Shown one piece after another: positions 480 to 14,666 of a DNA stretch of 14,666 nt (position 1 is its first letter; each line of letters begins with the position of its first letter). Made by a program: the position numbers and the translations under genes. This DNA comes from Anaerolineae bacterium. Its GTDB lineage: Bacteria; Chloroflexota; Anaerolineae; Aggregatilineales; Phototrophicaceae. Under the pieces are notes generated by a model. That model worked only from the letters and a program-made list of their open reading frames with translations, searched no databases and was not told the DNA's origin. The stretch is from positions 1 through 14,666 of the forward strand of contig JANQRM010000681.1 in assembly GCA_028284565.1 (NCBI GenBank), read 5' to 3'.

Positions 480-486
480 ACTGCTC

Positions 487-492
487 TATAAT
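487..492 (+). promoter_or_regulatory. Putative -10 element (TATAAT) upstream of the first small TIR gene
   Basis: TATAAT at 487-492 lies inside the 12-mer CTGCTCTATAAT (481-492). The same 12-mer occurs in inverse orientation at 4448-4459, upstream of the Uma2-like gene. The best -35 match 16 bases upstream (TGGTTG, 465-470) is weak. Transcription would start near 499, downstream of the ATG at 491, which favours the TTG at 524 as the true start. Inference from motif and position only. Confidence 0.4.
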
Positions 493-523
493 GGTACAAC
501 ACATCAATCGGAGTTACGCAACT

Positions 524-1255
524 TTGATAAAGAATCCACTTGACGATAAAATCCCCGAAGAGTTTGGCGACCAAGTGATTGCCTATGGTCGTGACTTGGC
601 GTATGGGGCGATGAATGGGCTGTGGAAGCCGACCTTTAGCTTTGCCATGAAGGGAGTCATTCACCTTTATGATCCGCATCCCGAAGCAGAAGCCATTTTC
701 AATGAGAAGTGGAATACCTTAGGCAACTTGGATGTCTATACGCAGTTGCTCGTCTCGTTGGGATATGCTGAGGAAGTTGAACATCGCTTCCGTCTGACGC
801 AAAATGCCTTTTCTCTGCTGGACAAACCCTTAAACCCACCTTCTGTTTTCATCTCCTACCGACGTTCGGAGAGTAGCGCCTTTGCCTTGGCTGTCGAAGC
901 CCGCTTGAAAAATGCAGGGGTGGACAATCCCTTTGTAGATAAGAACATCGTACCGGGTGATAAATGGAATAGCCTGTTGGAAGAAACTGTAAAGGACGCA
1001 GAATATTTCGTCTGTCTTGTGGGACCCACCACACTTGATTCGGTCAATGTACAGGAAGAGATTGAATGGGCGGAGCGATATGGCTGTCGAATCATTTCCA
1101 TATGGCACAACGGAGTCAATTCGCGGGATATTGCTGATAAAATCCCGCAAGTTTTCAATGACACACATCGAATCAAAGTGGATGTAGAAAGCGCGCTCCA
1201 CTACGAAATTGCCATCAGTCAATTGTTGAATGCGATGGGATACTCAACTTTTTAA
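524..1255 (+). CDS. Small TIR-domain protein with uncharacterised N-terminal domain (copy 1)
   Basis: This 243-residue protein probably cleaves NAD+ or makes a nucleotide signal through its C-terminal TIR domain (residues 106 to about 190). The domain opens with SVFISYRR (107-114), has a BB-loop-like PGDKW, and carries the likely catalytic Glu179 in a V-x-x-E-I-x-x-A context. Residues 1-102 form a separate helical domain (KIPEEFGDQ near its start, RLTQNAFSLL at its end) that I do not recognise; its end resembles a winged helix. The TTG at 524 is preferred over the in-frame ATG at 491. The protein then starts in step with its downstream paralogue (both read ..NPL..KIP[ED]EF), a GGAG lies at 510-513, and the ATG overlaps a TATAAT. 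If 491 is used the protein has 254 residues. No membrane segment is present, so it should be cytosolic. It forms an operon with the paralogue, 28 bases apart. TIR assignment is secure; the N-terminal role is unknown. Confidence 0.88.
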   Translation: MIKNPLDDKIPEEFGDQVIAYGRDLAYGAMNGLWKPTFSFAMKGVIHLYDPHPEAEAIFNEKWNTLGNLDVYTQLLVSLGYAEEVEHRFRLTQNAFSLLDKPLNPPSVFISYRRSESSAFALAVEARLKNAGVDNPFVDKNIVPGDKWNSLLEETVKDAEYFVCLVGPTTLDSVNVQEEIEWAERYGCRIISIWHNGVNSRDIADKIPQVFNDTHRIKVDVESALHYEIAISQLLNAMGYSTF

Positions 1256-1283
1256 AGATACTTCAGCAAATGAAGATAATCAA

Positions 1284-2072
1284 ATGACCGAATACAATCC
1301 TCTCCAAGAAAAAATCCCAGATGAATTCCTAGATCAAGTATACGATTTAGCGAGAGACTTAGCCTATGGCGTGGCTCAAGGCTGGTGGGACAAACATTTT
1401 ATTTATGTTTATGGTATAGAAAAGATTGAGTTCACTATCTTTAAGAACGGTCATCAAGGTGTGAAGCAATTTGAAAATAAATGGACAATGGAATTGTGGG
1501 ATTATTTTCATGAGTTGTTTAATCACGATTTCATCAAAGAAACCGAAGTAGGGAAAGGGTTAGACTGTCATCTTACCGAAGCAGGATTCTCCTTACTAAG
1601 ACAACCAACAATATCGCCAAGTGTTTTTATCTCCTGCGAAGGAAACCAAGGTTACCTTCTATGTTTATCGTTGGAAGAAAGGTTGTCTAAAAGACCTGTT
1701 AATAGCGCATCCATTACAAAATCTATAGAAACTGGGGATGATTGGCGAAAGCAATCAGAGATAGCAATAAAAGACGTTGATTATTTTCTGTGTCTTGTAG
1801 ATGAGAAGTCTATATATTCAGAAAGGGTATACCAAGAACTTGAATGGGCAGAGCTATATAGATGTCGTATTATTTTGATTTTGCATAATGACATGAATAT
1901 GATTAACATGCAGTCTGCACCGTCGTTATATCTGGAACACCAAATGTTCCAACTGCATCGAATGATTCCAGTGGATCAAGACCAAGATGCTTTAGAAAAT
2001 CGTCTATCTTTAATTCCTCTACTAAATATGATGGGATATGCAACTGACCCTTTCCCTTTGAAACACGATTGA
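1284..2072 (+). CDS. Small TIR-like protein, diverged AT-rich paralogue (copy 2)
   Basis: This 262-residue protein aligns with the preceding gene along its whole length: NPLQEKIPDEFLDQV, a shared RDLAYG, a C-terminal LLNMMGYAT matching LLNAMGYST, and TIR landmarks between them. The TIR-like part (about 112-200) starts SVFISCEG where the paralogue has SVFISYRR, so the usual YRR of the first motif is lost. Glu185 in V-Y-Q-E-L-E-W-A, the likely catalytic residue, remains, as does the GDxW of the loop. Sampled stretches are about 37% GC against about 47-50% for neighbours. The ATG at 1284 is chosen because it aligns with the paralogue's start and follows the stop at 1255; the ATG at 1230 would overlap the previous gene and add 18 unrelated residues. 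It may be a partner or regulator of copy 1, or a slowly decaying duplicate. Confidence 0.85.
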   Translation: MTEYNPLQEKIPDEFLDQVYDLARDLAYGVAQGWWDKHFIYVYGIEKIEFTIFKNGHQGVKQFENKWTMELWDYFHELFNHDFIKETEVGKGLDCHLTEAGFSLLRQPTISPSVFISCEGNQGYLLCLSLEERLSKRPVNSASITKSIETGDDWRKQSEIAIKDVDYFLCLVDEKSIYSERVYQELEWAELYRCRIILILHNDMNMINMQSAPSLYLEHQMFQLHRMIPVDQDQDALENRLSLIPLLNMMGYATDPFPLKHD

Positions 2073-2083
2073 AACAGAAACAG

Positions 2084-2102
2084 CAGTGATATCTGATTAC
2101 TG
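2084..2102. terminator. Weak hairpin between convergent genes
   Basis: CAGTGAT (2084-2090) and ATTACTG (2096-2102) pair over seven bases, with one G-T pair and a five-base loop. It lies in the 49-base gap between the stop codons of the TIR paralogue (+) and the potassium channel (-). On the minus strand it is followed by a T-rich tract (GCTGTTTCTGTTTC), so it could end the channel transcript. The stem is short and no clean T-run follows on the plus strand. Confidence 0.3.
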
Positions 2103-2121
2103 ACAATCTGAAATCTATCCT

Positions 2122-3180
2122 CTAACTCACATCATCTTCCATGTTGGCTTTTTCGAGGTCATAAACATTGTCGGGTTCGCCGATGACAATCAAAGTCGAG
2201 CCAGCTTCTAATTCAGTATGCGGGTTGGGTGAGATGACCATCTTGCCATTGGCATGTTTGATTCCCAAGATGGTGAGATTATGCACACGCCGTAAATCGC
2301 AAGTGGCAACCGTCTGCCCAGCCAAGTGTGATCCCTCCTGCACGGTAACTTGCCCCACTTCAATATTCAAATTATCTCCGAAATGGAAGATGTGACTCAA
2401 GAAGTCATTCACAGCTGGACGCAGGAGTGAGAGTGCCATCCGATGACCACCAATTTGGTAGGGATTAATAACTTCGTTTGCCCCTGCCCGACGCAACTTG
2501 CTCTCCGATTCATGTCGGACGGCTCGTGCAACGATATATAGCTTGGGATTGAGTTCATGTGCCGTGAGGACGGTCATGACATTACCAGCATCATTGCTCA
2601 GGGCGGCGACTAAGCCCTTTGCCCGTTCAACCTCAGCTTCCAGCATGATTTCGTCGGCGGTGGCATCCCCAATCAAATAGGGAATCCCTTGTTCTAGTAA
2701 TTCATCCGCAATCGTTTCATTAGAATCAATCACCACAAATGGTTCGCCGCGTGCGCGCAAATCCGCAACAATCTGCCGACCCATACGCCCATAACCACAA
2801 ACGATGTAGTGATTTTTGAGTTGATGTAATCGCTGATTCATACGGCGTTTCTCCAAGGAGGTCCAGAAAAGGGGACCTAAGAAAATACTAAAAGCGTTAC
2901 TGACGGCTACGGTTGTTACCCCAACACCCAGCATGATAAACAGCATGGTAAACGCACGACCTTCGGGTGTCAGTTCCTGAACCTCACCATAGCCAACGGT
3001 CGCCACCGTAATGACTGTCATGTACATCGCATCAATCGGGGTCATGTCTTCGATAACGATATAGCCGAGTGTCCCACACAGAATAAGGAAAGCCATCGCG
3101 CCCAAGGAATATTGAAAGCGACGAATCGGGTCATGGTCACGATTCAATGGAGCGGCGAGAAGGGAGAGCAGTCGGGACAT
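2122..3180 (-). CDS. Two-TM potassium channel with RCK (TrkA-N/TrkA-C) domains, MthK-like
   Basis: This 352-residue inner-membrane protein should form a tetrameric K+ channel gated by a cytoplasmic RCK ring. The first membrane helix is at about 24-43. A pore helix and the selectivity filter TVGYGE (61-66) follow, then the second helix at about 75-101. The RCK N-lobe begins at 123 with HYIVCGYGRMG (Rossmann GxGxxG at 129-134), the acidic residue Asp152 after the second strand (VVID) and GDAT (171-174). A TrkA-C-like lobe occupies about 270-345 (EGSHLAGQTV, GSTLIVIGEPD). Length and order are typical of two-TM RCK channels. The ATG at 3180 has no clear Shine-Dalgarno, but the start agrees with the domain order. 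It converges with the TIR pair and is the last of three minus-strand genes. A palindromic repeat lies between it and the gene upstream. Ion selectivity is secure from the filter; the RCK ligand cannot be read from sequence. Confidence 0.96.
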   Translation of the reverse strand: MSRLLSLLAAPLNRDHDPIRRFQYSLGAMAFLILCGTLGYIVIEDMTPIDAMYMTVITVATVGYGEVQELTPEGRAFTMLFIMLGVGVTTVAVSNAFSIFLGPLFWTSLEKRRMNQRLHQLKNHYIVCGYGRMGRQIVADLRARGEPFVVIDSNETIADELLEQGIPYLIGDATADEIMLEAEVERAKGLVAALSNDAGNVMTVLTAHELNPKLYIVARAVRHESESKLRRAGANEVINPYQIGGHRMALSLLRPAVNDFLSHIFHFGDNLNIEVGQVTVQEGSHLAGQTVATCDLRRVHNLTILGIKHANGKMVISPNPHTELEAGSTLIVIGEPDNVYDLEKANMEDDVS

Positions 3181-3220
3181 GGATGTAGGTCAGTTTAAGT
3201 TATCGTATTCAGAATTAAGC

Positions 3221-3248
3221 AGGGGCGTACAGCTGTACGCCCTTACAG
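3221..3248. repeat. Palindromic intergenic repeat, copy 1
   Basis: Bases 3223-3242 are a perfect 20-base palindrome (GGGCGTACAGCTGTACGCCC), continuing into TTACAG on the right. A related, slightly decayed copy is at 14061-14090. Both copies lie just 3' of the stop codon of a minus-strand gene and before the start of the next. Each also has the 10-mer CAGAATTAAG within a few bases of one edge. This fits a dispersed REP/MITE-like element that can form a hairpin in RNA and may act as a terminator or transcript stabiliser. Confidence 0.75.
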
Positions 3249-3314
3249 ATCATTCGATATTATTGGACGATTGATTACTTTGTCTAGCAATCATAATTCA
3301 GATTCATATAATAT

Positions 3315-3716
3315 TTAGTTCTCAATTTCACAGTATTCTAATGTACCTTCATACCACAGTATCCTAAAAATGGTTTCATCAGAGAATGTGACTTGAAGAT
3401 ACACTTCATCACCCCCTCTATTGGGAATGTGATCATCCCAATTATACCAAAGTATCTCAACTTCATATTCTTGATTCGTATTGTTGATAGATTGTGGAAT
3501 CGCTTTGAGGCAAGGGTAACCTGTTAGTAGCCCACAGAGCTGTTGTTGCTCTTCCTGTGTCGCATTCAGACATTGAATTACTTTTTCTGTGGCTTGTTCT
3601 TTTGGGTCGTAACTTCCCCAACTCTCAAGTAATTTATGCATTGCAAGTGTCGTGGATAGACAGATAAAGACAGATATCGCAATGATGAACAAATATTGCC
3701 ACTTAGCATTTGCCAT
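3315..3716 (-). CDS. Small membrane-anchored protein of unknown function
   Basis: This is a 133-residue protein with one hydrophobic N-terminal segment (about residues 7-27: YLFIIAISVFICLSTTLAM), either an uncleaved anchor or a signal peptide. A mostly exported domain with beta-rich features follows, ending in IFRILWYEGTLEYCEIEN. Five cysteines lie in the protein, four of them after the anchor (near residues 49, 61, 69 and 130). The ATG at 3716 is chosen because a strong AAGGAG (3724-3729) lies seven bases upstream and the membrane segment then starts near the N-terminus. An in-frame start at 3782 would add 22 residues and bury the anchor. The gene is AT-rich (about 35% in sampled stretches) compared with its flanks. 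I do not recognise the family. It lies between the Uma2-like gene and the potassium channel, all on the minus strand; there is no evidence that the three share a job. Confidence 0.72.
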   Translation of the reverse strand: MANAKWQYLFIIAISVFICLSTTLAMHKLLESWGSYDPKEQATEKVIQCLNATQEEQQQLCGLLTGYPCLKAIPQSINNTNQEYEVEILWYNWDDHIPNRGGDEVYLQVTFSDETIFRILWYEGTLEYCEIEN

Positions 3717-3723
3717 GAAGTTT

Positions 3724-3729
3724 CTCCTT
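3724..3729 (-). promoter_or_regulatory. Shine-Dalgarno AAGGAG that fixes the start of the small membrane protein
   Basis: The minus strand reads AAGGAG, seven bases before the ATG at 3716. It is the strongest ribosome binding site in the window and argues against the longer reading from 3782. Confidence 0.75.
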
Positions 3730-3783
3730 ATCCATCTATATCGTTGCAAATTCTTGCTTGACTCTACCCCAAAAGGAGACACG

Positions 3784-3801
3784 ATCCTGCTTAGACAGGA
3801 T
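3784..3801. terminator. Short hairpin downstream of the Uma2-like gene
   Basis: ATCCTG (3784-3789) and CAGGAT (3796-3801) form a perfect six-base stem with a six-base loop, 20 bases past the Uma2-like stop codon. On the minus strand no immediate T-run follows (CGTGTCTCC, then TTTT), so termination is only suggested. Confidence 0.3.
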
Positions 3802-3820
3802 ATTCTAAGGAAGTGACTAT

Positions 3821-4390
3821 TTAAGGTCGGAAGGTTTTGCGTTTAGGGATGATGTCATCTACTGGCATGGCAAACTCTGGTAGTACATCTTCGCCGCGTA
3901 AGGTATCGCCAAGGGTCAAGGGTTGTGGGGCGCGTTCCCGACAATAGACGACCACAGTTTGTGTATCGGGATAGATAAACCACATATAGCGTGTGCCAGC
4001 ACGGATATACTGTGCGGCGAGGTTTCGAATGTCTGTGTTCTTATGTTGTGGTGCAATGACTTCGACGGCAATATCTGGCGCGAAAGGGAGATACGAATAG
4101 GGATACTGAATATTTTGCCACTTGTATTTGCTGATGAACGCCGTGCGTGGTGAGCGAATGGTGTATTTACCTAAGCGAAAACCATTGTGACTTTCGACGA
4201 CTTCTCCAGCATCATTGGCTTCGGCATGATTGCGTAGAGTCGTTTCCATCCGCAAGCCGACAATTGAATAGCGAAAGGGGACATGAATCGCCTCAATCAC
4301 TTGCCCATTGTCAAGTTCATAGGGTTGAAATCCGTACTGACTCCAAAACTCGCTGACCGTTATTTTTTTACTTGGATTGGGTGTATCCAT
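3821..4390 (-). CDS. Uma2-family (DUF820) PD-(D/E)XK nuclease-like protein, degenerate
   Basis: This 189-residue protein follows the Uma2 plan: an N-terminal YELDNGQVIEA strand pair (24-34), then a helix. GFRLGKYTIRSPRTAFIS (70-87) is next, then PDIAVEVIAP (105-114), YIRAGTRYMWFIYPDTQTVVVY (128-149) and the closing DTLRGEDVLPEFAMPVDDI (162-180). Uma2 proteins have a restriction-endonuclease-like fold, are very numerous in Cyanobacteria and Chloroflexota, and mostly lack a proven role. Asp106 and Glu110 are present. The first P-D motif usual in the family reads P-R here (81-82), and the lysine usually found shortly before the Tyr at 128 is missing, so nuclease activity is doubtful. The ATG at 4390 has AAGG six bases upstream; an upstream TTG at 4438 has none. 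A TATAAT at 4448-4453 (minus) suggests its own promoter. The gene is divergent from the glycosyltransferase. Confidence 0.87.
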   Translation of the reverse strand: MDTPNPSKKITVSEFWSQYGFQPYELDNGQVIEAIHVPFRYSIVGLRMETTLRNHAEANDAGEVVESHNGFRLGKYTIRSPRTAFISKYKWQNIQYPYSYLPFAPDIAVEVIAPQHKNTDIRNLAAQYIRAGTRYMWFIYPDTQTVVVYCRERAPQPLTLGDTLRGEDVLPEFAMPVDDIIPKRKTFRP

Positions 4391-4447
4391 GATGTGCCTT
4401 GCAATACAATCAATATCCGCTGACAACACAATCACCAACTATCGACT

Positions 4448-4459
4448 ATTATAGAGCAG
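4448..4459 (-). promoter_or_regulatory. Putative -10 region (CTGCTCTATAAT) upstream of the Uma2-like gene
   Basis: On the minus strand the 12-mer CTGCTCTATAAT lies 57 bases before the ATG at 4390. It is identical to 481-492 upstream of the first small TIR gene. It would give a leader of about 50 bases and exclude a start at 4438. No convincing -35 is seen. Confidence 0.4.
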
Positions 4460-4475
4460 AATTATCAATTACGTA

Positions 4476-6434
4476 TTGGAACGATGGGTTATTGTGAATC
4501 GTCAGCCGACTTTCATTTTCGCGATCGTTAGTTTTTGTATCAGTGCGCTTGCATTCACTATTATTAGTGATGCCTTTTATGGATTGGTGCTTGCCATGGT
4601 GGGTTGGGTCATCTGGCTGTGGAAAGTCTGCGACGAGTCGCCAGAGCCACCCCTTTCATCTCAACTAGACAATCCCTTTACACACTGGCATGGTCTAGCT
4701 ATCGCAATTGCTCTACTTTGCTTCATTGCACTGGTCGAAATCAATACGGCGCACTGGAACATTGCCTTCCTGTCAGGTTTATCGTTACCCACTCAACTCA
4801 TCTTCTTCTTTGTTGGGGTATTTGGTGTCGTTTGGGGTTTAGGCGTAGGCAGTTACCAGAAGCAGTGGATCCCACAGATACGACACCTATCTTCACAATG
4901 GGAATGGCAATTCGTTTTCTTGCTCACCATTATTGGTTTTTTCTTGCGCGCGGCAGGACTCGATGAAACTTCGCGCTTCATGGTCGATGAACTGAATACC
5001 GTCTCCGGTGTGCTGGCATTGCGCGATGGCGAAGCGAATAATTTGTTATGGCAAATGTCTCGTAATATCATGCCCTATCCATGGCATTATGCCTATGCAC
5101 ATCACCTCGCGGTTGAACTCTTTGGTCGCTCTCTCTTCGGCTTGCGTGTAGTAGATGCCATGTTTGGTGCATTCAGTATCCCCTTGCTCTATCTACTCGC
5201 AAAAGCTCTTTTTGATAAAAAAACAGCGCAAGTTTCTGCATTGTTTGTTCTCACCTTTCCACTACATCTCCATCTGAGTCGGCTGGCACTCATCAATTTG
5301 TCAGATGGTGTGTTGATTGTCGGCATAATGGCGTTCTTCGTACGGGGATTTCGGCATGGTTCGCGGATGGACTTTGCACTCGCCGGACTATTTTGGGGAT
5401 TAACACAATATTTTTATGAAGGCGGACGACTGCTCATTACGCCTTTGGTTATTGTGAGTCTACTCGTGGGTTTGCTCTTCTGGCGGGATGTGCTTCGACG
5501 ACACTGGCGGGGAATTGTTGTGATGTTCATCGTAGCGTTGGGAATTAGCATACCGCTTTATATCACTTGGTCACTACTCGAATTCCCTATCGCCGGACGC
5601 ATGACAACTGTCGGCAGTAGCGGAGAGTACTGGCTCGCAGTCCTGTTGTCCGAAGTCGATTCGGGTTGGCTCGATACCCTCTATGACCAAATTGCCCGCG
5701 CCTTCCGCGTTTATGTCAATCTGCCTGACCAATCACTATTTTATGGTGGCGAGCTAGCGATGATCTTGCCCCCGCTGATACCTTTCTTTCTCGTTGGGAT
5801 TGCAGTGGTGCTTTCTCGCCGGCGGACACAAGCTCTCCTCATCTTATTACCTATCGTTGGTTATTCCTTATCCAACGGACTCTTCATCTTCAACCCGGCA
5901 CGTTATGCCCGTTATATCGGTGCAACGCCCTTTGTTGTCTTGCTGATTGCTATCGGCGTGGTCAGACTGTTTCAATCTTCCAAACCAAGCTGGCTCATAT
6001 GGACAGTCACTATTCTAATTGTCATCGGACAAGGGGTTTACTATTTTGTTCCGCATCTGACGCATTACAACATCCAATTCCGCGAAGGACGACCTTATCC
6101 CGATTATGAAGATGCCATGTTGCGATCAGTGGATTTTGTAGCAGGGACACAGATTCATGTAATCGCACCAGAGGGCTTGAACCAGAATGATGCTCAGACC
6201 TTCTTGCGCTTGTTTGTAGATGACATCACGGTCAATACAATTTATAGAGGAGAGTTTGATGAAACCTATCTTCAAGATTTGCCATCTAACATCGAGCATG
6301 TCTTTTACATCACACCAGACGATGGACGAAGTCGACACATCCTCAGGCAGACATATGGCGACTTGGCACCTCAAGTAAGTCCTTATACCAACTTGCCCAA
6401 CTCAACAACGATGGAAGCCTATGTTATTCCTTAG
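4476..6434 (+). CDS. Polytopic membrane glycosyltransferase, PMT/ArnT (GT-C) type
   Basis: This 652-residue protein probably transfers a sugar from a lipid-phosphate donor to a substrate on the outer face of the membrane. About a dozen hydrophobic segments run from residue 11 to about 525. The stretch DETSRFMVDELNTVSG (163-178) matches the first external loop of the dolichol-phosphate-mannose transferase-like family, with Asp171-Glu172 as the likely catalytic acidic pair. HHLAVELFGRSLFGLRVVDAMFG (about 208-230) is the typical following segment. The C-terminal 120 residues are a soluble domain outside the membrane. The N-terminal 140 residues form an extra multi-helix region before the catalytic loop. 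The start is uncertain: a TTG at 4476 gives the longest reading and a GTG at 4494 is the alternative; neither has a good Shine-Dalgarno, and the frame is closed by a TAG at 4452. Donor and acceptor cannot be read from sequence. The gene is divergent from the Uma2-like gene and is followed by the SRP RNA gene on the same strand. Confidence 0.9.
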   Translation: MERWVIVNRQPTFIFAIVSFCISALAFTIISDAFYGLVLAMVGWVIWLWKVCDESPEPPLSSQLDNPFTHWHGLAIAIALLCFIALVEINTAHWNIAFLSGLSLPTQLIFFFVGVFGVVWGLGVGSYQKQWIPQIRHLSSQWEWQFVFLLTIIGFFLRAAGLDETSRFMVDELNTVSGVLALRDGEANNLLWQMSRNIMPYPWHYAYAHHLAVELFGRSLFGLRVVDAMFGAFSIPLLYLLAKALFDKKTAQVSALFVLTFPLHLHLSRLALINLSDGVLIVGIMAFFVRGFRHGSRMDFALAGLFWGLTQYFYEGGRLLITPLVIVSLLVGLLFWRDVLRRHWRGIVVMFIVALGISIPLYITWSLLEFPIAGRMTTVGSSGEYWLAVLLSEVDSGWLDTLYDQIARAFRVYVNLPDQSLFYGGELAMILPPLIPFFLVGIAVVLSRRRTQALLILLPIVGYSLSNGLFIFNPARYARYIGATPFVVLLIAIGVVRLFQSSKPSWLIWTVTILIVIGQGVYYFVPHLTHYNIQFREGRPYPDYEDAMLRSVDFVAGTQIHVIAPEGLNQNDAQTFLRLFVDDITVNTIYRGEFDETYLQDLPSNIEHVFYITPDDGRSRHILRQTYGDLAPQVSPYTNLPNSTTMEAYVIP

Positions 6435-6470
6435 GGATGAAATATTAATACGATTCTGATGGTACAACCA

Positions 6471-6500
6471 TTGACGCAAGCAAGCCTCAAACCGTATACT
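6471..6500 (+). promoter_or_regulatory. Sigma-70-type promoter of the SRP RNA gene
   Basis: TTGACG (6471-6476) and TATACT (6495-6500) are separated by 18 bases, the best promoter match in the window. Transcription would start near 6507, about 25 bases before the predicted mature 5' end of the SRP RNA, leaving a short leader to be processed. Confidence 0.7.
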
Positions 6501-6532
6501 AAACATCTTAAAATAGTTCATCTTGACGGATA

Positions 6533-6627
6533 GTCGAGTCCCTGCGCGGCAGAACCTCCGAACCGTGTCAGGGCTTAACGGCAGCAGCACTAAGGAGTCT
6601 CTTCTGGGTGTCGTGGGGTCGCTCGGC
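6533..6627 (+). ncRNA. ffs: Bacterial small signal recognition particle RNA (4.5S type)
   Basis: This is the RNA core of the signal recognition particle, which binds Ffh and targets nascent membrane proteins. The apical domain is clear: GUGU (6565-6568) pairs with GCAC (6587-6590), enclosing the symmetric loop CAGG (6569-6572) / AGCA (6583-6586) that Ffh contacts. GCU/GGC then closes a tetraloop, UAAC (6576-6579). Below it CUCC (6556-6559) pairs with GGAG (6594-6597) across the asymmetric loop GAACC/UAA. CAGAA (6550-6554) pairs with UUCUG (6602-6606). GUCGAG (6533-6538) pairs with CUCGGC (6622-6627) to close the rod. The length of about 95 bases fits the small bacterial form without an Alu domain. 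The usual bacterial tetraloop is GGAA, so UAAC is a variant. A good promoter lies upstream and a short T-rich stretch (TTTCCTT) follows. It is convergent with the TIR-propeller gene, 26 bases away. Exact ends are estimates. Confidence 0.88.
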
Positions 6628-6653
6628 TTTCCTTCTGGGTGAACTGTTTTGCT

Positions 6654-9600
6654 TTAACCCTCACCTTCCTCACATCGTACCGGAGACCGATGCTCGTCCC
6701 GTTGTTGACAACTCAAGTTGGCTACACGGCGATTGAGTTGTACCCATTCGATCATTTCAGTGTCCGGCGGGATGAGGTCCAATCGATAAAAAGACTCCCA
6801 CTCGTTGAATATCGCCTGATTATCGCGTGGTGCAAAGTGAATGATCTCATTGCCTTCAACGGGGATAGCGCGCAAGGTTGTGCCATTTTGTATATTCCAA
6901 TAGAACATGATGGTCGAAAAGTCAGAGGTCAAAGCAAAGCGATTATCGGGAGAGATAGCCAGCACAGAGGGTGGATTGCGGTGTCCATCAAAGCGACGCA
7001 GAATCCGTTGATTGACCACATCCCATACAAAGACGGTTAGCCGATTATCTTGCACCAACAAGGCTACTGAACCGTCATCGGATAAGGTGGCGAGCTCCAC
7101 ATCTTGCAAGGGTTCTATGGATTGCTCTTCCACAATGTCTCCGGTAGCGACATCCCAGGTGGTGATGCCATTCCCGTGAATCCCCAAGAGTTGCGAGCCA
7201 TCGTTGATAAATCGCATCGTAGTATAAATCGGTTCGGAATTCGCCAATGCACGGAGTTTGTCCCCCGTTTCACTGCTCCATAGCTCATATGCGCCATTAT
7301 TGTCATTGCGGACGACAAAGACTTCATTGGGAGAATGCCACAGTACAGCAGGTGGAACGCCATCTAACACATGCAAAATCTCGCTCGTTTGAATATCAAT
7401 CTGTGTGAGTTGCCCAGAAAAATCACTAACGAGAGCGTGTGACTCATCCACACTCAGATGTAGTGTTTCGATTTCAAATTCTGTTTCGGGTTCATTGAGG
7501 ATTATCGGATTCAGGGTGATGGGGTCGTAAAATCCAAAAAGTCCTTGTTCATCATGGGCGAAGATTTGCTCGCCGTCATCAAGATAATGGGCATTCAGCA
7601 AGCCACCGCTGATGAGTTGGATTCGATTGCTAGACAGTTCATGTAATATGATTTGATCATCCGTCGCACTGATGACCAACAACCCATCGGAGGAGACATC
7701 AATCAAGGGATGCAAGCCCATGTCATATGAACCCAACGTCTGTCCTGTTTCCAAATCAAACACAGTCAAGCCCTCAGAGAGGAAGGTGTTGTATTGTGAA
7801 TCGCTAATCAGGTCTAATCCCGCAAACATCAACTGCTCATCATTGCTAAACAAGAGGGTCTTAACAGGCGCAGAAAACAGGCGGTTCGTCAGCGAATCCA
7901 GTGTTCCCTTGTTCAAGATATAGGTGGCGGTTACTTCATCCGCTTCCAAATCCCAGCGTCGCACTTCATTCCGTGCATTGAAGAGGAGGGCGTTTCCATC
8001 ATCAATAAACCATACCCGACTCGCCTCCACACCCCCAACAAACAGTTCATTAAGCAACTCGTTTGTCTCAATATCTAAAATTTGAATGCTTTCAGGGCGA
8101 TACACAACATCATCACGAGGACATTCCTCACAGGCAGGAAGCGTCGCCATCACGTAGATCGCAATTTTGCTTCCATCCGGTGAAACTCCAGCAAAACGCG
8201 ATTCGCGCTCATCGAAGAAAAATGCATAAAGAAAGTCACCCGTTGCATAATCTAAAAAGACAACTTCCGTTTCCGTACAAACCCGCTCGTCATCCTCATC
8301 AACATCCTTCTCAACATCGTCATCCACGACAAGGAAATCCAAGCATTGGTTCTGATATATCCATTCTGGACTGGATAATATCTCGCCCCATGTCTCGACA
8401 CTGCCGAGGTTTTCACCTGTCAGCGTGTCATACACATCCGTCCAGCAAAACGCACCAGCAGGGTTGTCTAAGTCCTCACAAAATTCAATATAAACAACTT
8501 CGGCATCATGGCTTAATTGAACCGTGACCGCACCGTCGCCTTGTGCCTCGATGAGATATTCATTCTCCAACTCGTGACCAATCACGTCCCACCACGCCAC
8601 CTTAATATCGGGACAGGGGTGTTCAATCGTATCTGCACAGGTTACAACCACAGCGGAAGTATCATCCGATGTGAAAACGGCATCCAATGGAAACGTCGCG
8701 TCAATCGTATCACTCAAGGGCATGACCGCCGTGGTGTCATAAAACGTTGAGGCGATAGTTTCGCGGATGTTATCTGGCAGATTCTCGATTTGTAATACAT
8801 CTTGTGCAAGTGCGTAGGCAAGGAAAGGATTCGTTTTGGTCATCGCTGGTAGATTGTTCGCCAGTCGATTCGCATCCGCTAGTTGTGCTCGTTGGACAGC
8901 TGTGGCTTCCGCACTCAGCGCACGGTCTTCATTGGCAATGGCTGTGGCTTCGGCATCGAGGGCGCGCGCTTCGGCAACCGTGGCGCGTTGGAAACCAATA
9001 AAGGACAATACGCTCAATATCACCGATACAAGCAAGGCAACGGATACCGCACTCAACATCAAACGTGTCCGACGGCTATCCCGCTTCCGACTCGCCAAAA
9101 CATAGTCTTTGTGTAAATCGGTAGGGTAGGGACTTTTGCCTGCCGAATTCGCCAGCCACGCTTCGGCTTCTGTAATCTCATCACCTTCCAGCAGGTAACT
9201 ATCTTCGCGGTCTAATTTGTCCCATTCTAGCGCACGGAGTAAAAAGCGTTTGTGTTGGCGAGTATGTTCGAGGTCGCTATCGAGGGCTTCCATAATGCGG
9301 GGAAACGAATCCTCAAACGTATTCTCTTGTCCCGCATGAGGCGTGAAGTAAATCCAGTTGATATGTCCGATGCCATCGGGGATGGGTTTGCCCTCAAATT
9401 TAGTTAGGACAATGGGGATGATCTTTTTCTTCAAATCAATCGCATATTTCAGTTCCAAATCGACACAATAGGTCGATTCCAGATAATCAGGCGAGAGTAC
9501 CGCGATAAAAGCATCTGCGCCTTCTAACCCTCGCTTGATGTCATCTGAAAAGCCCACACTCCCCGGCGGAATGTCTTCCCAATCAATCCAGACCTCTTTA

Positions 9601-9695
9601 CCTGATGATTGGAGTTGTTCGACCAATTCCTTGACGAACTCCACATCCACTCGTCGATAGGAGACGAAAACATCACTGAAATCACTTGCACTCAT
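6654..9695 (-). CDS. TIR - transmembrane - beta-propeller receptor-like protein
   Basis: This is a 1013-residue single-pass membrane protein. A TIR domain occupies residues 6 to about 115 (VFVSYRRVDVEF; EVWIDWEDIPPG; SPDYLES; likely catalytic Glu81 in E-L-K-Y-A). A linker (145-205; YLLEGDEITEAEAWL, PYPTDLHKDYVLASRKR) resembles those of bacterial TIR-WD40 proteins. It is followed by RKRDSRRTR (203-211) and a membrane helix at 212-235. An Ala/Glu-rich coiled coil (237-281; repeats like AEATA) leads to a beta-propeller from about 320 to 975. Blades are diverged, but WDV / DGS..A strands recur (VWDVVNQRILRRFDGH). The tail has WVQLNRRVANLSC, a motif shared with the neighbour. Basic residues before the helix place TIR inside and propeller outside. 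All ten cysteines after the helix form five close pairs. An acidic patch (457-470) sits in one loop. AGAAGG lies five bases before the ATG. The stop of the upstream STAND gene is 20 bases away, implying an operon. No NTPase domain is present. Confidence 0.93.
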   Translation of the reverse strand: MSASDFSDVFVSYRRVDVEFVKELVEQLQSSGKEVWIDWEDIPPGSVGFSDDIKRGLEGADAFIAVLSPDYLESTYCVDLELKYAIDLKKKIIPIVLTKFEGKPIPDGIGHINWIYFTPHAGQENTFEDSFPRIMEALDSDLEHTRQHKRFLLRALEWDKLDREDSYLLEGDEITEAEAWLANSAGKSPYPTDLHKDYVLASRKRDSRRTRLMLSAVSVALLVSVILSVLSFIGFQRATVAEARALDAEATAIANEDRALSAEATAVQRAQLADANRLANNLPAMTKTNPFLAYALAQDVLQIENLPDNIRETIASTFYDTTAVMPLSDTIDATFPLDAVFTSDDTSAVVVTCADTIEHPCPDIKVAWWDVIGHELENEYLIEAQGDGAVTVQLSHDAEVVYIEFCEDLDNPAGAFCWTDVYDTLTGENLGSVETWGEILSSPEWIYQNQCLDFLVVDDDVEKDVDEDDERVCTETEVVFLDYATGDFLYAFFFDERESRFAGVSPDGSKIAIYVMATLPACEECPRDDVVYRPESIQILDIETNELLNELFVGGVEASRVWFIDDGNALLFNARNEVRRWDLEADEVTATYILNKGTLDSLTNRLFSAPVKTLLFSNDEQLMFAGLDLISDSQYNTFLSEGLTVFDLETGQTLGSYDMGLHPLIDVSSDGLLVISATDDQIILHELSSNRIQLISGGLLNAHYLDDGEQIFAHDEQGLFGFYDPITLNPIILNEPETEFEIETLHLSVDESHALVSDFSGQLTQIDIQTSEILHVLDGVPPAVLWHSPNEVFVVRNDNNGAYELWSSETGDKLRALANSEPIYTTMRFINDGSQLLGIHGNGITTWDVATGDIVEEQSIEPLQDVELATLSDDGSVALLVQDNRLTVFVWDVVNQRILRRFDGHRNPPSVLAISPDNRFALTSDFSTIMFYWNIQNGTTLRAIPVEGNEIIHFAPRDNQAIFNEWESFYRLDLIPPDTEMIEWVQLNRRVANLSCQQRDEHRSPVRCEEGEG

Positions 9696-9715
9696 AAAGA
9701 CCTTCTATCCGTCCA

Positions 9716-12700
9716 TTATTCTCCAGAAAAATAGCCTGCGCTCTGTGCAGAGAAGATGTCTTGCGTCGTAACCCAGCCTGTTAAGCCATCGCTTGTACAG
9801 ACTTTGCGCCAATTTTCATTTTCAGATTGGCTGACAATCCGTACGGATTCACCATTCATGATTTGTCCGATAATCTCACTGTCTGCACTTGCTTGCATAT
9901 GGACATCTAGCTGACTGGCTTCGACCACGATTTGCTCAAACGATGTATCGCCTTCATCCAAGCCAAAGACCAGCCGTTCATTACAACTCAAGTCTCGCAC
10001 ATGGCGATTATCCAGCGTCCATTCCAGAAGAATATCCACTGTCGGCAACACTTGCCATAGGCTTAAGGTATCATCATTCAAGCCCGTGACTGCGAATTGC
10101 CCCGTCGAATCAATATCCACAGGACGAATCGCCACAGCCCGCCCGATATTATTCTCAACAGTATAGCTATGCAGTTCTGCACCCGCGCGTATATCCCATA
10201 GACGCATTGTGCCATCGCTTGACGTAGATAGAACGGTATCCGTATTCGGCACAAAGGTGACATCGTTCACACCACGATCATGTCCTTCAAGGCGACGAAT
10301 CTCTTGTCCACTGGCAATATCCCAGATTCGCACGGTGTTATCGGATGCACCGGATACTGCCAATGTGCCATCATTATTGAAAGCTACAGCGAACACAGAG
10401 GCAGAGTGTCCTGTCAAAGTACGCAATATCTCACCAGTTTCGACATCCCACAAAATAATCGAATTATCGAATGAACCCGTCAGTGCGTGTGTCCCATCCG
10501 GGCTAAACACAACACTAGCGACGGTATCTGAATGTCCGTTAAATCGACGGATAATCTCACCAGTTTCGACATCCCACAGAATCATCTGATTATCAAACGC
10601 ACCAGAAATGGCGTGTGTCCCATCCGGGCTGACATCAAGAGAGGTAATGTTACCCGTATGCCCTTCATAGATTCGCAGGATTTTGGCGGTTTCGATGTCC
10701 CACAAAATCAGTGTCTTATCCACCGAAGCTGATAGAATCTGTGTGCCATCCGGCAGGAAATCGACATCCGTGATACTACCCGTATGCCCATCGAAAAAAC
10801 GAATCGGGTCGCCTGTTGCTATTTCCCACAAAATTAATCTATCGTCCAACGAACCCGATACCAAGAACTGTTCGTCGGGGCTAAATTCTGCTGCCGTGAC
10901 GACATTGTCATGTCCTGCATAGGCAACCAATTCTTCACTACCTGCAAAGTCCCACACCCGAATTTCGGATTCCGTCACCGTCGCTACCCGATTTGACCCA
11001 ATCACGGTCGCAAGGTCGAGTACCGCTGTCTCACGAATGAAGTTTTGCAACTGAATGCCCGCAAAGGTATCCCATGAGCGAATACTGCCATCCCGTGCCG
11101 TGGCAACCAGTTCTTCATCGCCCGATAAGAAACCGATAGCTGTAATGGCACTGCTAATCGACTCAAAGTTAATGTCTAAAGCTCCCGTGCCAACTTCCCA
11201 GATGCCCAAGCCCCCATTGCCAAAACCTGCACCGATTGACAAGCCGTTGGGACTAAAGGCTAACGCGGTAATCCGTGAATCGAAGCTGTCTTGTTTGACA
11301 TCAATTGATAAATCTAAGACATCCCCAATCATTCCCGGACTGACGGAGCGTATCCGGATTTCGCCATCGCGCGAACCCGAAGCCACAAAGTCATTGTCGG
11401 GGTTCGGACTCGCTGCCACGGCATTCACCGCCGTCAGATGAGTGGATTGAAACGCCACCTCATAGGTCGATAAATCCCATAGGATGAATTGTCGGTCTTC
11501 GCCACCCGAAAGGGCAAATTGCAGATTGCTGGTGAATGCTACACTATTGACACTATCCGAATGTCCCGCCAACGGGCTAATTATGCGCCAATCGGATGTA
11601 CTCCACAGCAACAAATTGTTCTCTGTCCCATCCGATGCCGATAGCATCCAACGTCCATCGACACTAAAGGCAAGGTCATTCACGTTGTCATTGTGTGCCG
11701 CCAGGCGTTGAATCTCGCTTGCATTCGTCACATCCCACACAATCAACATGCCCGATTCCATGCCCGTGACCAAAATCGAGCTATCCGGACTGAGAGCAAC
11801 CGATTCGATTTCATCTCCGTCATTAATCGTCATCAGGCGATGCGTCCCCGGTGCGAGGACAATTCGCTCAACATTGTTCACCGCTTGCACAGGCGGATTC
11901 GGCACACGCACCGCTTCGAGAGCGAGAGCAATTGCCAAGTCGCCATCATTATCATCCAACGCACGGTCAGCCGATGCTGAGACAGCGAGACTTTGTGATT
12001 CGGATAAGGCTTGCTCCAGTGCAATCGACTGTTCTTCCAATTCATTTGTGGTTTGTTGCAAAGCCGTGTTCGTCTGGATCATCGCAATAATCCCTATGCC
12101 TGCGATGACAATACCCACAATCAGCAACGCGACAATCCCACGCAGACGGCGCGCCGACGTTTGTTGTAACGCCAGTTCCCGTTCTTGCTGTTCTCGCCGA
12201 CGTTCTTCGCGTTCTTCTTGTGATTTCAAACTCGCTTGGATGAATTCCTGTTGTAGCGGATTCGCATCCGTCGTCTCAATCCAGATTTCCGCACGATTCA
12301 ACCGTTTCCCTACGAGCAGATAGGCACTATCTTGTCCACTTTCTTGCCAGTCATGCGCGCTCTTGAGCAACTCGCTGTTGTATTGCAGATTCTCTAGGCT
12401 CGCATTCACCCATGTCTTGAAGCGTTCCCACTCCCGAATCAGGGCTTCATGACTGACTTCGAGCCATGTGACAGGTTCCACTTCCAGTTCGCTCGATGTG
12501 ATTTCACGGCTGGCAATCAACAAGCGCGACTCCGCAGAGGTCAATAAGTCTACGATGCGGTCAACGTCAGCATCCGTCACATCCCGAAATTGCAATTCAT
12601 TACGCGGGACACGTCGGCGTGTAGCTTCGCCTACATCATTCACTTCCACCAAACGCAAGAGGATACGGCGCGTCAAATCTTGTTGGAGTGGAGGCAAGTC

Positions 12701-14005
12701 GGCAAAAATCGTTTCGGCATGGCGGGCGAGGGCTTGTTGCACCCCACCAATCGCGTCATACGCCGCATTCGTGAGATTCACCCCATCTCGTTGTTCATAG
12801 AGTTGACTCAACGCATATTGCAACAGAGGCAATGACCCCGGCTCACTTTGCACATCTTCTAGGATGCGGTCAACCAAACCATGCTCATATTGCAATCCCA
12901 CTGCTTTCGCGGGACCTTCAATCACCCGCAAGAGATTCGCTGTCGTCATTTCCGTGACAATGAGCAGATTGCGTTGCTCAAATAGCTCCGCCAATTCAGG
13001 ATAGCGGCTCAAATTCCCGAAAAAGTCCGCGCGCATGGTGATGATTATCTTCGCTCGGCTTTTGGGGGATGTCGCCGCGACAAGCATTGTCTTCAAGAAA
13101 GGAACACGTTCTGCTTCACTCGCGCGGGTGAACACCTCTTCAAATTGGTCAATGACAATCAGAATGCGGGTCTGTTCGGTGCGATCTGCCCAAATTTGTT
13201 CCATCAAATCAATCACACGCTCCGGCTGACGGAAGGTCGCCATCAGTGCATTGAGATTAAACGTCGCTTGATGTTCTTCTGGGATAACAGGCAAAATCCG
13301 CTTCGCCAACGATTCAATCGGTTTATTTCCCGGCTTGAAAATCGCCATCAACCACTTTTCAGAGCCATCCAGCGCGCCCTTTCTGAGTTTGGGGATAATT
13401 CCCGCGCGCACGAGTGACGACTTCCCACTCCCACTTGCGCCGACCACACCCAGAAAGCGGGTCGTTTGTAGACGGTTCAGAGCTTTGTCAATCAGCGTTT
13501 CGCGCCCAAAGAAGAAGTCCGCATCTGTCTGTTGGAAAGACTGCAACCCTTTAAAGGGATTCGGGATATTCTCTGGATCAAAGAGGTCGTATGCCCCAAT
13601 TGCCCGTCGTCCGGGGAGGGCTTCCAGTAATTCAGGGAAAGTCTCTTCATAGCCCTTCTCAAAATTGATGATATGGATGTCGGTCAACCATACCATTTCA
13701 TCATCAGCACGGAGTTCGTCCAGTGCCCGCACAACCATGATGGGGATAATGAGCTTGCCTTGTTCACGCGCGGTCAAAATCTCCTTCTTGACCCATACGC
13801 TTTGCACCGCAGGGGGTGATAAACACGCCACGATGAAATCCGCCCGTTCAATTCCCCGAAAAATCTCTTCTTGCCATGGTTCACCGCCTTGTATTTGACG
13901 GAAATCTACCCACACATCCAGCCCTGCATCATCCAAATCACGGGCGATGCGCTCGGCAAAGTTTTTGTTGCGTCGGGAATAGGAGATAAAGACACGTTGT
14001 TGCAT
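9716..14005 (-). CDS. TIR - nSTAND1 NTPase - TM - WD40 (14 blades) - SH3b protein
   Basis: This 1429-residue NLR-like signalling protein has, in order, a TIR domain (4 to about 125) with VFISYSRRNKNF, DVWVDFRQI, and likely catalytic Glu75 in W-V-K-K-E-I. An nSTAND1-type NTPase follows from NPFKGLQSF (149). It has FFGRE, Walker A GASGSGKSS (189-197, Lys195) and Walker B ILIVIDQFEE (281-290, Asp286). TMRADFFG (323-330), EPGSLPLLQYALSQLYE (388-404) and VSHEALIREW (517-526) continue the domain. A basic helix (596-623) precedes one membrane segment (624-643) and a coiled coil (645-682). Fourteen WD40 blades, enough for two seven-blade propellers, cover about 725-1319. Then come W-T-L-D-N-R-H-V-R-D-L-S-C and an SH3b domain (about 1362-1418, ending GLTGWV). 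STAND proteins oligomerise on ligand sensing; TIR would then cleave NAD+. AAGGA lies nine bases before the ATG. It is followed 20 bases later by the TIR-propeller gene. Confidence 0.95.
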   Translation of the reverse strand: MQQRVFISYSRRNKNFAERIARDLDDAGLDVWVDFRQIQGGEPWQEEIFRGIERADFIVACLSPPAVQSVWVKKEILTAREQGKLIIPIMVVRALDELRADDEMVWLTDIHIINFEKGYEETFPELLEALPGRRAIGAYDLFDPENIPNPFKGLQSFQQTDADFFFGRETLIDKALNRLQTTRFLGVVGASGSGKSSLVRAGIIPKLRKGALDGSEKWLMAIFKPGNKPIESLAKRILPVIPEEHQATFNLNALMATFRQPERVIDLMEQIWADRTEQTRILIVIDQFEEVFTRASEAERVPFLKTMLVAATSPKSRAKIIITMRADFFGNLSRYPELAELFEQRNLLIVTEMTTANLLRVIEGPAKAVGLQYEHGLVDRILEDVQSEPGSLPLLQYALSQLYEQRDGVNLTNAAYDAIGGVQQALARHAETIFADLPPLQQDLTRRILLRLVEVNDVGEATRRRVPRNELQFRDVTDADVDRIVDLLTSAESRLLIASREITSSELEVEPVTWLEVSHEALIREWERFKTWVNASLENLQYNSELLKSAHDWQESGQDSAYLLVGKRLNRAEIWIETTDANPLQQEFIQASLKSQEEREERRREQQERELALQQTSARRLRGIVALLIVGIVIAGIGIIAMIQTNTALQQTTNELEEQSIALEQALSESQSLAVSASADRALDDNDGDLAIALALEAVRVPNPPVQAVNNVERIVLAPGTHRLMTINDGDEIESVALSPDSSILVTGMESGMLIVWDVTNASEIQRLAAHNDNVNDLAFSVDGRWMLSASDGTENNLLLWSTSDWRIISPLAGHSDSVNSVAFTSNLQFALSGGEDRQFILWDLSTYEVAFQSTHLTAVNAVAASPNPDNDFVASGSRDGEIRIRSVSPGMIGDVLDLSIDVKQDSFDSRITALAFSPNGLSIGAGFGNGGLGIWEVGTGALDINFESISSAITAIGFLSGDEELVATARDGSIRSWDTFAGIQLQNFIRETAVLDLATVIGSNRVATVTESEIRVWDFAGSEELVAYAGHDNVVTAAEFSPDEQFLVSGSLDDRLILWEIATGDPIRFFDGHTGSITDVDFLPDGTQILSASVDKTLILWDIETAKILRIYEGHTGNITSLDVSPDGTHAISGAFDNQMILWDVETGEIIRRFNGHSDTVASVVFSPDGTHALTGSFDNSIILWDVETGEILRTLTGHSASVFAVAFNNDGTLAVSGASDNTVRIWDIASGQEIRRLEGHDRGVNDVTFVPNTDTVLSTSSDGTMRLWDIRAGAELHSYTVENNIGRAVAIRPVDIDSTGQFAVTGLNDDTLSLWQVLPTVDILLEWTLDNRHVRDLSCNERLVFGLDEGDTSFEQIVVEASQLDVHMQASADSEIIGQIMNGESVRIVSQSENENWRKVCTSDGLTGWVTTQDIFSAQSAGYFSGE
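10300..10900 (-). repeat. 126-base tandem repeat encoding near-identical WD40 blades
   Basis: Within the STAND gene, blades 8-12 repeat with an exact 126-base (42-residue) period. Bases 10428-10452 and 10554-10578 are identical over 25 bases, and 10485-10504 and 10611-10630 over 20. The following unit (from about 10686) is similar but more diverged. Other blades in the same gene show little nucleotide similarity. This points to recent duplication or gene conversion among these blades. Confidence 0.85.
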
Positions 14006-14060
14006 TGCGTGGATTCCTTATGGGTGGACGGGTGGATATTAAAGAAGTTTGTCTTAATTC

Positions 14061-14090
14061 TGTAAGGGTGTACAGTTATACGCCCTTACG
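14061..14090. repeat. Palindromic intergenic repeat, copy 2
   Basis: The arms GTAAGGG (14062-14068) and CCCTTAC (14083-14089) are complementary. The core (TGTACAGTTATACG) is a decayed form of the perfect palindrome of copy 1 at 3223-3242. It lies in the 101-base gap between the gene at the right edge and the STAND gene, 17 bases past the former's stop. It could end or weaken read-through between them. Confidence 0.72.
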
Positions 14091-14106
14091 AAAATCCAAT
14101 AACTGA

Positions 14107-14666
14107 CTATTGCTTCAATTTCTTCTGCACAAACCCCAAAAAGGGATACGCCAACTGATTCGCTTGCACCGTGTCTTGTGACAAGAAGCGTTCATTTGCC
14201 ACTTCAAAATCATGATGCAAACGCTCTAACTCACGCACTTGCTGAGGCGCAGGTTCATTCAAAAACAACACAATCACCGTTGTCTTCTGGCGGGTGGCAA
14301 ACATCATCCAGATTCCGCGTTGGGTTTCCTGCGTCCGCGTTTCAATAAATTGGTTGGTGTCGAGTTGATGGGTAATATCCGCTAGCACAGGCACAATCAC
14401 CGAATCGGGAATAGAGAAGTTCCCCAAAGTTTCCAGCAATTCTCCGCTATGATGATGATAAATCGCCATGCCGATGGCTTTGCCGGTGGTCGCTTGTCGG
14501 ATCGCATAGGTCGGGACACTATTTTGCACTTCATTCACAAGGCGTTGGTCATTCGTCAGCAAGGCTTCATGGGCGACTCCCAATTGCCCGTTATAGCGTT
14601 CATAGAGCAAGTTAAATTGCTCACGGCTGATTTTGCCCTCCGTGAACTCTTGCATCAGGTCACGGA
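14107..14666 (-). CDS. Hypothetical protein, possibly roadblock-like, 5' end outside the window
   Basis: The frame is open to the right edge: codons before the ATG at 14655 read R-D-L, continuing the helical MQEFTEGKISREQFNLLYERY. The gene therefore probably starts beyond the window, and 182 residues from that ATG are the minimum. After this charged, SHOCT-like helical segment comes an alpha/beta region: IGMAIYHHHSGELLETLGNF, then VIVPVLADITHQLD, GIWMMFATRQKTTVIVLFLNEPA, and RELERLHHDFEVANERFL. The order of strands and helices is what a roadblock/LC7-like regulator would show, but I see no diagnostic motif, so this is only a suggestion. No membrane segment is present, so it should be cytosolic. 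It lies 101 bases upstream of the STAND gene on the same strand, with a palindromic repeat between. It may be part of the same transcription unit or a separate gene ended by that hairpin. Confidence 0.7.
   Translation of the reverse strand, partial: RDLMQEFTEGKISREQFNLLYERYNGQLGVAHEALLTNDQRLVNEVQNSVPTYAIRQATTGKAIGMAIYHHHSGELLETLGNFSIPDSVIVPVLADITHQLDTNQFIETRTQETQRGIWMMFATRQKTTVIVLFLNEPAPQQVRELERLHHDFEVANERFLSQDTVQANQLAYPFLGFVQKKLKQ

Follow-up and report, generated by a model that had tools for sequence, protein, structure and literature searches.

A likely cell-surface TIR receptor with paired outer cysteines in an Anaerolineae bacterium

Does the TIR domain of a protein encoded in a 14,666-nucleotide stretch of DNA from an Anaerolineae bacterium (assembly GCA_028284565.1, contig JANQRM010000681.1, positions 1 to 14,666; here the window) answer to a sensor inside the cell or to one outside its membrane? 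Known bacterial TIR systems (Thoeris, TIR-STAND and TIR-SAVED) are regarded as detectors of infection within the cell. The protein, P0001, comprises 1013 amino acids (aa) and its open reading frame (ORF) occupies 6654..9695, reading from 9695 to 6654 on the minus strand, as do all parts of the gene given below. It consists of a TIR domain (aa 1-140, 9276..9695) on the predicted cytoplasmic side, a conserved juxtamembrane helical linker (aa 141-211, 9063..9275), a membrane helix (aa 212-235, 8991..9062), a predicted extracytoplasmic helical stalk (aa 236-319, 8739..8990), two predicted seven-bladed propellers (aa 323-697, 7605..8729, and aa 699-973, 6777..7601), and a C-terminal cysteine motif. 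P0001 is probably a single-pass receptor of the cytoplasmic membrane, with the TIR domain inside, disulfide-stapled propellers outside, and signalling across the membrane to the TIR domain. An earlier note on this DNA had reported five close cysteine pairs after the helix and Cys77 alone before it, and had proposed that the N-terminus lies inside and the C-terminus outside, that the propeller is exported and disulfide-bonded, and that an outside sensor drives the TIR domain. The cysteine-pair finding is confirmed and is stronger than first stated, and the protein is likely a cell-surface TIR receptor; that an outside sensor drives the TIR domain is still something we infer.

The cysteines of P0001 are located at residue 77 before the helix and at 353, 361, 406, 417, 451, 473, 522, 525, 996 and 1008 beyond it, and the positions and counts given earlier are all right. 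When ten cysteines are placed at random in residues 236-1013, five consecutive pairs, each no more than 22 residues apart, arise in 0.04% of 200,000 draws; this cut-off was taken from the data themselves, and the family serves as the independent test. Even cysteine numbers are used as a mark of exported disulfide proteins in the available text of PMC7678975 and PMC12421883. Three homologue searches, the first of which scored the 7992 candidates sharing most words, yielded 199 relatives of P0001 from the best 120 of 179, 206 and 242 matches, respectively; two of the three used the TIR part as query. A helix at 200-260 follows the TIR domain in 187 of the 200 proteins, P0001 included. The 13 proteins that lack such a helix and the 26 members shorter than 800 aa were set aside, and cysteines on the outer (ecto) side were counted in the remaining 161 members. 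The count is even in 149 of the 161 members (zero in seven of these); with each ectodomain cluster at 50% identity represented by a single member, it is even in 85 of 93. The even, paired outer cysteines of a disulfide-bonded extracytoplasmic protein are thus present, and the parity control differs: 54 membrane-less ORFs from the relatives' loci, which were picked by a mechanical rule that took the longest first and among which spurious or secreted ORFs may occur, divide into 27 even and 27 odd. Among control ORFs with 2-10 cysteines (n = 36), the number is even in 21, and no consecutive pair is more than 30 residues apart in 6; the corresponding figures for the family members with 2-10 ecto cysteines (n = 152) are 141 and 132. 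The cytoplasmic side of the 161 members carries no cysteine in 6, one in 89, two in 58 and three in 8, and follows no parity rule, though its count is dominated by the conserved Cys77 (110 of the 114 members of the first search that have the helix). In 34 more distant members from other genomes, counted after seven fragments (three open-ended, four short or without helix) had been dropped, the number beyond the helix is even in 29 and the number before it odd in 26.

When the last two cysteines are set aside, the distance within a pair is 30 residues or less for 67 of 68 inner pairs, with a median of 8, whereas random placement in 2000 runs gave 15.4 such pairs on average and 27 at most; the 68 spacings were taken from those 39 of the 93 cluster representatives whose inner number is even and not zero, odd representatives not being counted. 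The last pair is at most 30 aa apart and less than 60 aa from the end in 123 of the 161 members; in P0001 this recurring C-terminal pair is Cys996/Cys1008 (6672..6710). For 318 member pairs with ectodomains at least 38% identical, compared in both directions, inner pairs are kept in 306 cases, absent in 17 and split in 4. These comparisons started from pairs of even-count members, allowed a shift of three residues and counted related sequences repeatedly. With the last pairs added, the comparison of homologues that had been proposed, namely whether pairs are gained and lost together, came out in favour of the claim: among 895 directional comparisons both cysteines are kept in 838, both are lost in 41, and 16 are apparently split. 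A single pair near 623-631, with a spacing of 3 or 4, accounts for the four inner splits, and the last pair in six proteins, with a spacing of 10 or 14, for the other 12. Both cysteines are present in both proteins in all 16 splits, so that these are shifts of spacing and no true single cysteine occurs.

P0001 has a single stretch with a Kyte-Doolittle mean above 1.4 (19-residue window), with window starts at 209-223 and a peak of 2.66 at 212. It is directly preceded by the sequence RKRDSRRTR at residues 203-211, the C-terminal end of the linker. The 15 residues before the helix have a more positive net charge than the 15 after it in 112 of the 114 members, and the number of lysines plus arginines is higher before the helix in 103. 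LysM domains are found beyond the helix in P0090 (44.9 bits) and P0156 (35.9 bits; cut-off 20.9) and an SH3_3 domain in P0081 (27.4 bits; cut-off 27), so that at least 3 of the 15 relatives scanned with Pfam carry LysM or SH3 domains there; for 7 of the 15 the lists hold the best 25 families, and further outer-type domains are possible. Precomputed domain annotations also give LysM for P0150, P0152, P0154 and P0155. Two matches below cut-off, GH46 in P0147 (26.7 of 27) and PPC in P0059 (22.4 of 25.9), were not counted. VKOR, which could oxidize such cysteines, is encoded in all nine family-bearing genomes searched, a sample without the window's own genome. The proposed orientation, N-terminus in and C-terminus out, agrees with the charge bias, the LysM and SH3 domains of some relatives and VKOR, and these together with parity and pair co-conservation support the claim of an exported, disulfide-bonded propeller. 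On these sequence features, a TIR domain inside and a disulfide-bonded propeller outside are strongly supported; the disulfides and the export are what we infer from cysteine rules, charge bias and co-conservation of the pairs. In seven short members the TIR domain and its helix are followed by some 190 aa of loop and then by another helix, after which six of the seven have a basic stretch. An odd number of ecto cysteines is seen in the members P0157, P0178, P0192 and P0172 (in the last inside its second helix), all shorter than 800 aa; a few of the short members are perhaps truncated or frame-shifted.

It is very improbable that the propeller is cytoplasmic, with cysteines that bind metal or are incidental and a helix that is a mere membrane anchor. 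WD40 propellers are often cytoplasmic, and Cys522/Cys525 form a CxxC, as such an arrangement would allow. Against it stand the parity of the control ORFs, the charge bias, the LysM and SH3 domains on the same side of the helix, and the spacings of the inner pairs, which range from 1 to 46 without a fixed metal motif. Metal binding by the CxxC was rejected on this variable spacing.

The predicted model of P0001 (predicted local distance difference test, pLDDT, 82.3; predicted template modelling score, pTM, 0.66) shows the TIR domain, a helix from residue 193 through the membrane segment, the helical stalk with helices at 250-288, 290-300 and 308-319, and 56 strands. Residues 241-251 of the stalk are below 50 pLDDT. 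We read the 56 ordered strands of the model as 14 blades, the second propeller being assigned from model strands and Foldseek matches. The Foldseek list is headed by multi-propeller proteins, including 2ymu and Apaf-1, with low whole-chain TM-scores of 0.26 and 0.36. In the model the loops between strands b and c are 8-18 residues long in blades 1-4 and 14 in blade 6, both in propeller 1, and 2-6 in the other nine blades. The four inner pairs of P0001 are placed by the model in the b-c segments of blades 1-4, and the loop of blade 6 is free of cysteines. In blade 1, Cys353/Cys361 (8613..8639) span the end of strand b and the loop after it; in blade 2, Cys406/Cys417 (8445..8480) occupy facing positions of strands b and c; in blade 3, Cys451/Cys473 (8277..8345) stretch from where strand b starts to where the b-c loop ends; and in blade 4, Cys522/Cys525 (8121..8132) are both within the b-c loop. 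P0046, which is 29% identical to P0001 and also has five pairs, was modelled with a pLDDT of 89.6 and a pTM of 0.72; its pairs 339/346, 389/398, 484/488 and 703/708 are predicted to run from the end of strand b, or near it, to the b-c loop or the start of strand c. For the structural check proposed in the earlier note, hairpin placement was examined: seven of the eight inner pairs of the two models are predicted in strand b-c hairpins, and 451/473 is less clearly placed, as described below. Among 51 short inner pairs of cluster representatives, a W[DNSE] motif follows the second cysteine by 3-11 residues in 26 (7.0 expected), and the motif of the a-b turn precedes the first in 9 (3.2 expected), so that b-c loops are the preferred, not the exclusive, location of the pairs.

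On the inner side, aa 9-125 of P0001 match Pfam TIR_2 with 89.5 bits (cut-off 28), which places the domain in the TIR superfamily. The WD40-type propeller matches, among nine Pfam matches in all, score under the Pfam cut-offs, and a Pfam scan of aa 126-240, spanning the linker, matched no family. Scans of P0001 with NCBIfam and with the PADLOC defence library, the latter run on five ORFs of the window, returned weak TIR or propeller matches and nothing stronger. The closest solved TIR structure is that of Cat1 (E 4.9e-10). TIR NADases have a catalytic glutamate, for which a spacing of two residues is usual. We take Glu81 (codon 9453..9455) to be this residue, and on its position it is likely catalytic. 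The glutamate aligned with Glu81 is invariant in the 114 members (114/114); it is separated from the Cys77 position by two residues in 27 and by three in 83, with 4 unparsed. The TIR domain of P0001 may cleave nicotinamide adenine dinucleotide (NAD+).

The proposed mechanism is as follows. The TIR domain and helical linker would lie inside, and the helical stalk and the two seven-bladed propellers outside, where disulfides would form via VKOR-type oxidation. The staples formed by the paired cysteines would probably be chiefly in the elongated b-c loops of propeller 1, on one face of the wheel, and in the C-terminal tail. Binding of a ligand to this outer (b-c) face could alter how the stalk and membrane helices of two or more receptors pack together, and the TIR domains would then assemble inside. 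Their NAD+-cleaving activity, with Glu81, would either deplete NAD+ or produce a signal nucleotide.

The named members of the family are labelled Anaerolineae, Phototrophicaceae, Aggregatilineales or Anaerolineaceae, of the Chloroflexota. At E 1e-30 or better, the module of TIR domain, linker and helix is found in 22 of the 298 genomes sampled from the class and in 13 of the 301 sampled from the phylum, the samples overlapping; twelve of these genomes are known from the matches alone, the rest of the gene being unseen. One genome has at least nine matches to the module. Scans of genome contigs revealed 12 loci with an alignment query and none with a single-sequence query. The median identity to P0001 is 62% for the TIR domain and linker and 23% for the ectodomain (160 members), the TIR part being higher in 160 of 160. 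Three pairs of paralogues show the same, with identities of 94 vs 47%, 73 vs 33% and 67 vs 32%; a shared contig is probable for the first two, and the third, P0091 and P0105, is a direct tandem at positions 5978-11464 of locus L011. Related receptors would thus have the TIR-linker part in common and differ in the outer part, as expected of a receptor repertoire. Going further, we put a little short of an even chance on the proposal that the Anaerolineae have several genes for true cell-surface TIR receptors, a repertoire that would be an independent bacterial counterpart, in reversed order, of the animal Toll-like receptors. In each of these bacterial receptors a conserved TIR output would be joined to fast-diverging outer sensors (disulfide-stapled propellers, LysM, SH3 and others) for wall fragments, phage or other cells, and would trigger NAD+-based signalling or cell death.

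Several observations weigh against the receptor reading or parts of it. The ecto count is odd in 12 of the 161 members; one of these, P0135, is named partial by its source, and the other 11 have one extra, apparently unpaired cysteine each. Five of the 34 distant members are odd as well. VKOR is also present in 3 of 14 control genomes, and its presence is therefore permissive, not specific. Cys451 and Cys473 are not at facing positions in the model of P0001, where they lie in a stretch of low confidence. In the pairwise alignment with Cat1, Glu81 stands opposite a different, neighbouring glutamate and not the one with the usual spacing, so that Glu81 is the likely catalytic residue but not a proven one. 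The contrast between TIR part and ectodomain is partly a matter of ascertainment, because two of the searches favoured the TIR part; this bias affects the paralogue pairs less than the family-wide comparison.

Toll-like receptors are likewise single-pass proteins with the ectodomain outside and the TIR domain inside (PMC7075850, in its available text). Unlike them, P0001 has its TIR domain first (at 9-125) and C-terminal propellers, with no leucine-rich repeat in its nine Pfam matches; common descent of the architecture is not implied. The Mycobacterium kinase PknD and the PASTA receptor kinases resemble P0001 in having a cytoplasmic output, one membrane helix and an extracellular propeller or wall-binding repeats, although PknD has a kinase in place of the TIR domain and a six-bladed propeller (available text of PMC6213207). 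Bacterial TIR-STAND-WD40 proteins share the N-terminal TIR domain and the C-terminal WD40 repeats; unlike these NLR-like proteins, P0001 has no NTPase among its nine Pfam matches and is not of the STAND type. ThsB of Thoeris and the CRISPR-associated Cat1 share the TIR fold, Cat1 as the best solved match and the ThsB models as weak ones, and both are described as soluble cytoplasmic proteins. The best Thoeris model scores 30.1 bits on P0001, against a family cut-off of 220. A bacterial TIR receptor with an outside propeller was found in no title or abstract, which is weak evidence as subscription papers were thinly covered. In the available text of the sources, PMC10907252 predicts one STAND-system target with periplasmic NACHT and lectin domains, PMC8195603 describes EACC2 systems with variable outer domains and membrane helices, PMC7159879 reports outer domains in GAP1-N2 systems, and PMC9153377 reports transmembrane regions in short TIR proteins; both membrane TIRs and sensing on the outer side by bacterial conflict systems have thus already been suggested. 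If the receptor reading is true, recognition outside with a TIR domain inside, the receptor logic of animal innate immunity, would exist in bacteria, and a defined outer domain would make what a bacterial TIR can sense directly testable.

The gene upstream of P0001 (9716..14005, minus strand, 1429 aa) is itself a TIR-STAND-WD40 gene with its own membrane helix. Its N-terminus is matched by TIR models and is followed in turn by nSTAND1 (397 bits), the membrane helix, WD40 repeats (307 bits) and a C-terminal SH3_3 domain (39.1 bits; cut-off 27), which lies beyond the helix as in P0081 and likewise agrees with the proposed orientation. The gap between the genes is 20 bases (9696..9715, minus strand), with AGAAGG five bases before the ATG, and the two are probably in one operon. 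Promoter and terminator scans gave results at chance level. The TIR domain might be a structural adaptor instead of an enzyme, recruiting other TIR proteins such as the product of the upstream gene (TIR-nSTAND1-membrane-WD40) or the small TIRs at 491-2072. A second TIR receptor 20 bases upstream and two further TIR genes in the window would suit this role; it is nevertheless unlikely, since Glu81 is invariant and conserved pairing of the upstream gene with P0001 is not supported. A tblastn search with its TIR-nSTAND1 part gave 105 matches in the relatives' loci, and the 18 that were listed are all confined to the TIR part. The 182-aa ORF described below and the two small TIR genes had no tblastn match in these loci at 1e-8.

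Ten ORFs adjoining relatives in 8 loci were scanned with Pfam, and 9 had matches, to diverse families (among them M23 peptidase, P450, FAD synthetase, PMT_2 and those of a kinase with a periplasmic-binding domain); in this small scan neither a shared partner nor a defence theme was found, and a defence role is not favoured by the few neighbours scanned. The same topology could serve to monitor the envelope or cell wall instead of defence, as the TIR counterpart of receptor kinases such as PknD and the PASTA kinases, which is a possible but doubtful alternative. LysM and SH3_3 variants are wall-associated domains, an extracellular propeller is present in PknD (PMC6213207, in part), and the varied neighbours show no common partner. 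The strong divergence of the paralogue ectodomains, however, resembles a non-self repertoire, and the neighbour scan is small and made with Pfam alone. Known bacterial TIR outputs, moreover, are mostly immune. The kinase with the periplasmic-binding domain (locus L006, 5893-7914) lies just before a family member and likewise combines an output inside with a sensor outside.

The upstream protein has a cysteine at 61 before its helix and cysteines 1341 and 1403 alone after it. In the larger relatives P0128, P0125, P0130, P0131, P0087 and P0119, the membrane helix is near 640-770, with 0-12 cysteines before it and 2 after it (4 in P0131), so that STAND-type membrane WD40 proteins seem to follow the parity rule too. 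Cysteine parity may offer an inexpensive guide to the topology of membrane proteins with WD40, STAND or TIR domains. The 182-aa ORF (14107-14655, minus strand), which lies upstream of the STAND gene and matched nothing in Pfam, PADLOC or NCBIfam, may belong to the same operon. The two small TIR genes overlap in tandem on the plus strand (491-1255 and 1230-2072); the second has SCEGN where the first has SYRRS, and its TIR_2 score of 29.8 bits is barely above the cut-off of 28. An ion channel with TrkA_N and TrkA_C domains is encoded at 2122-3180 on the minus strand.

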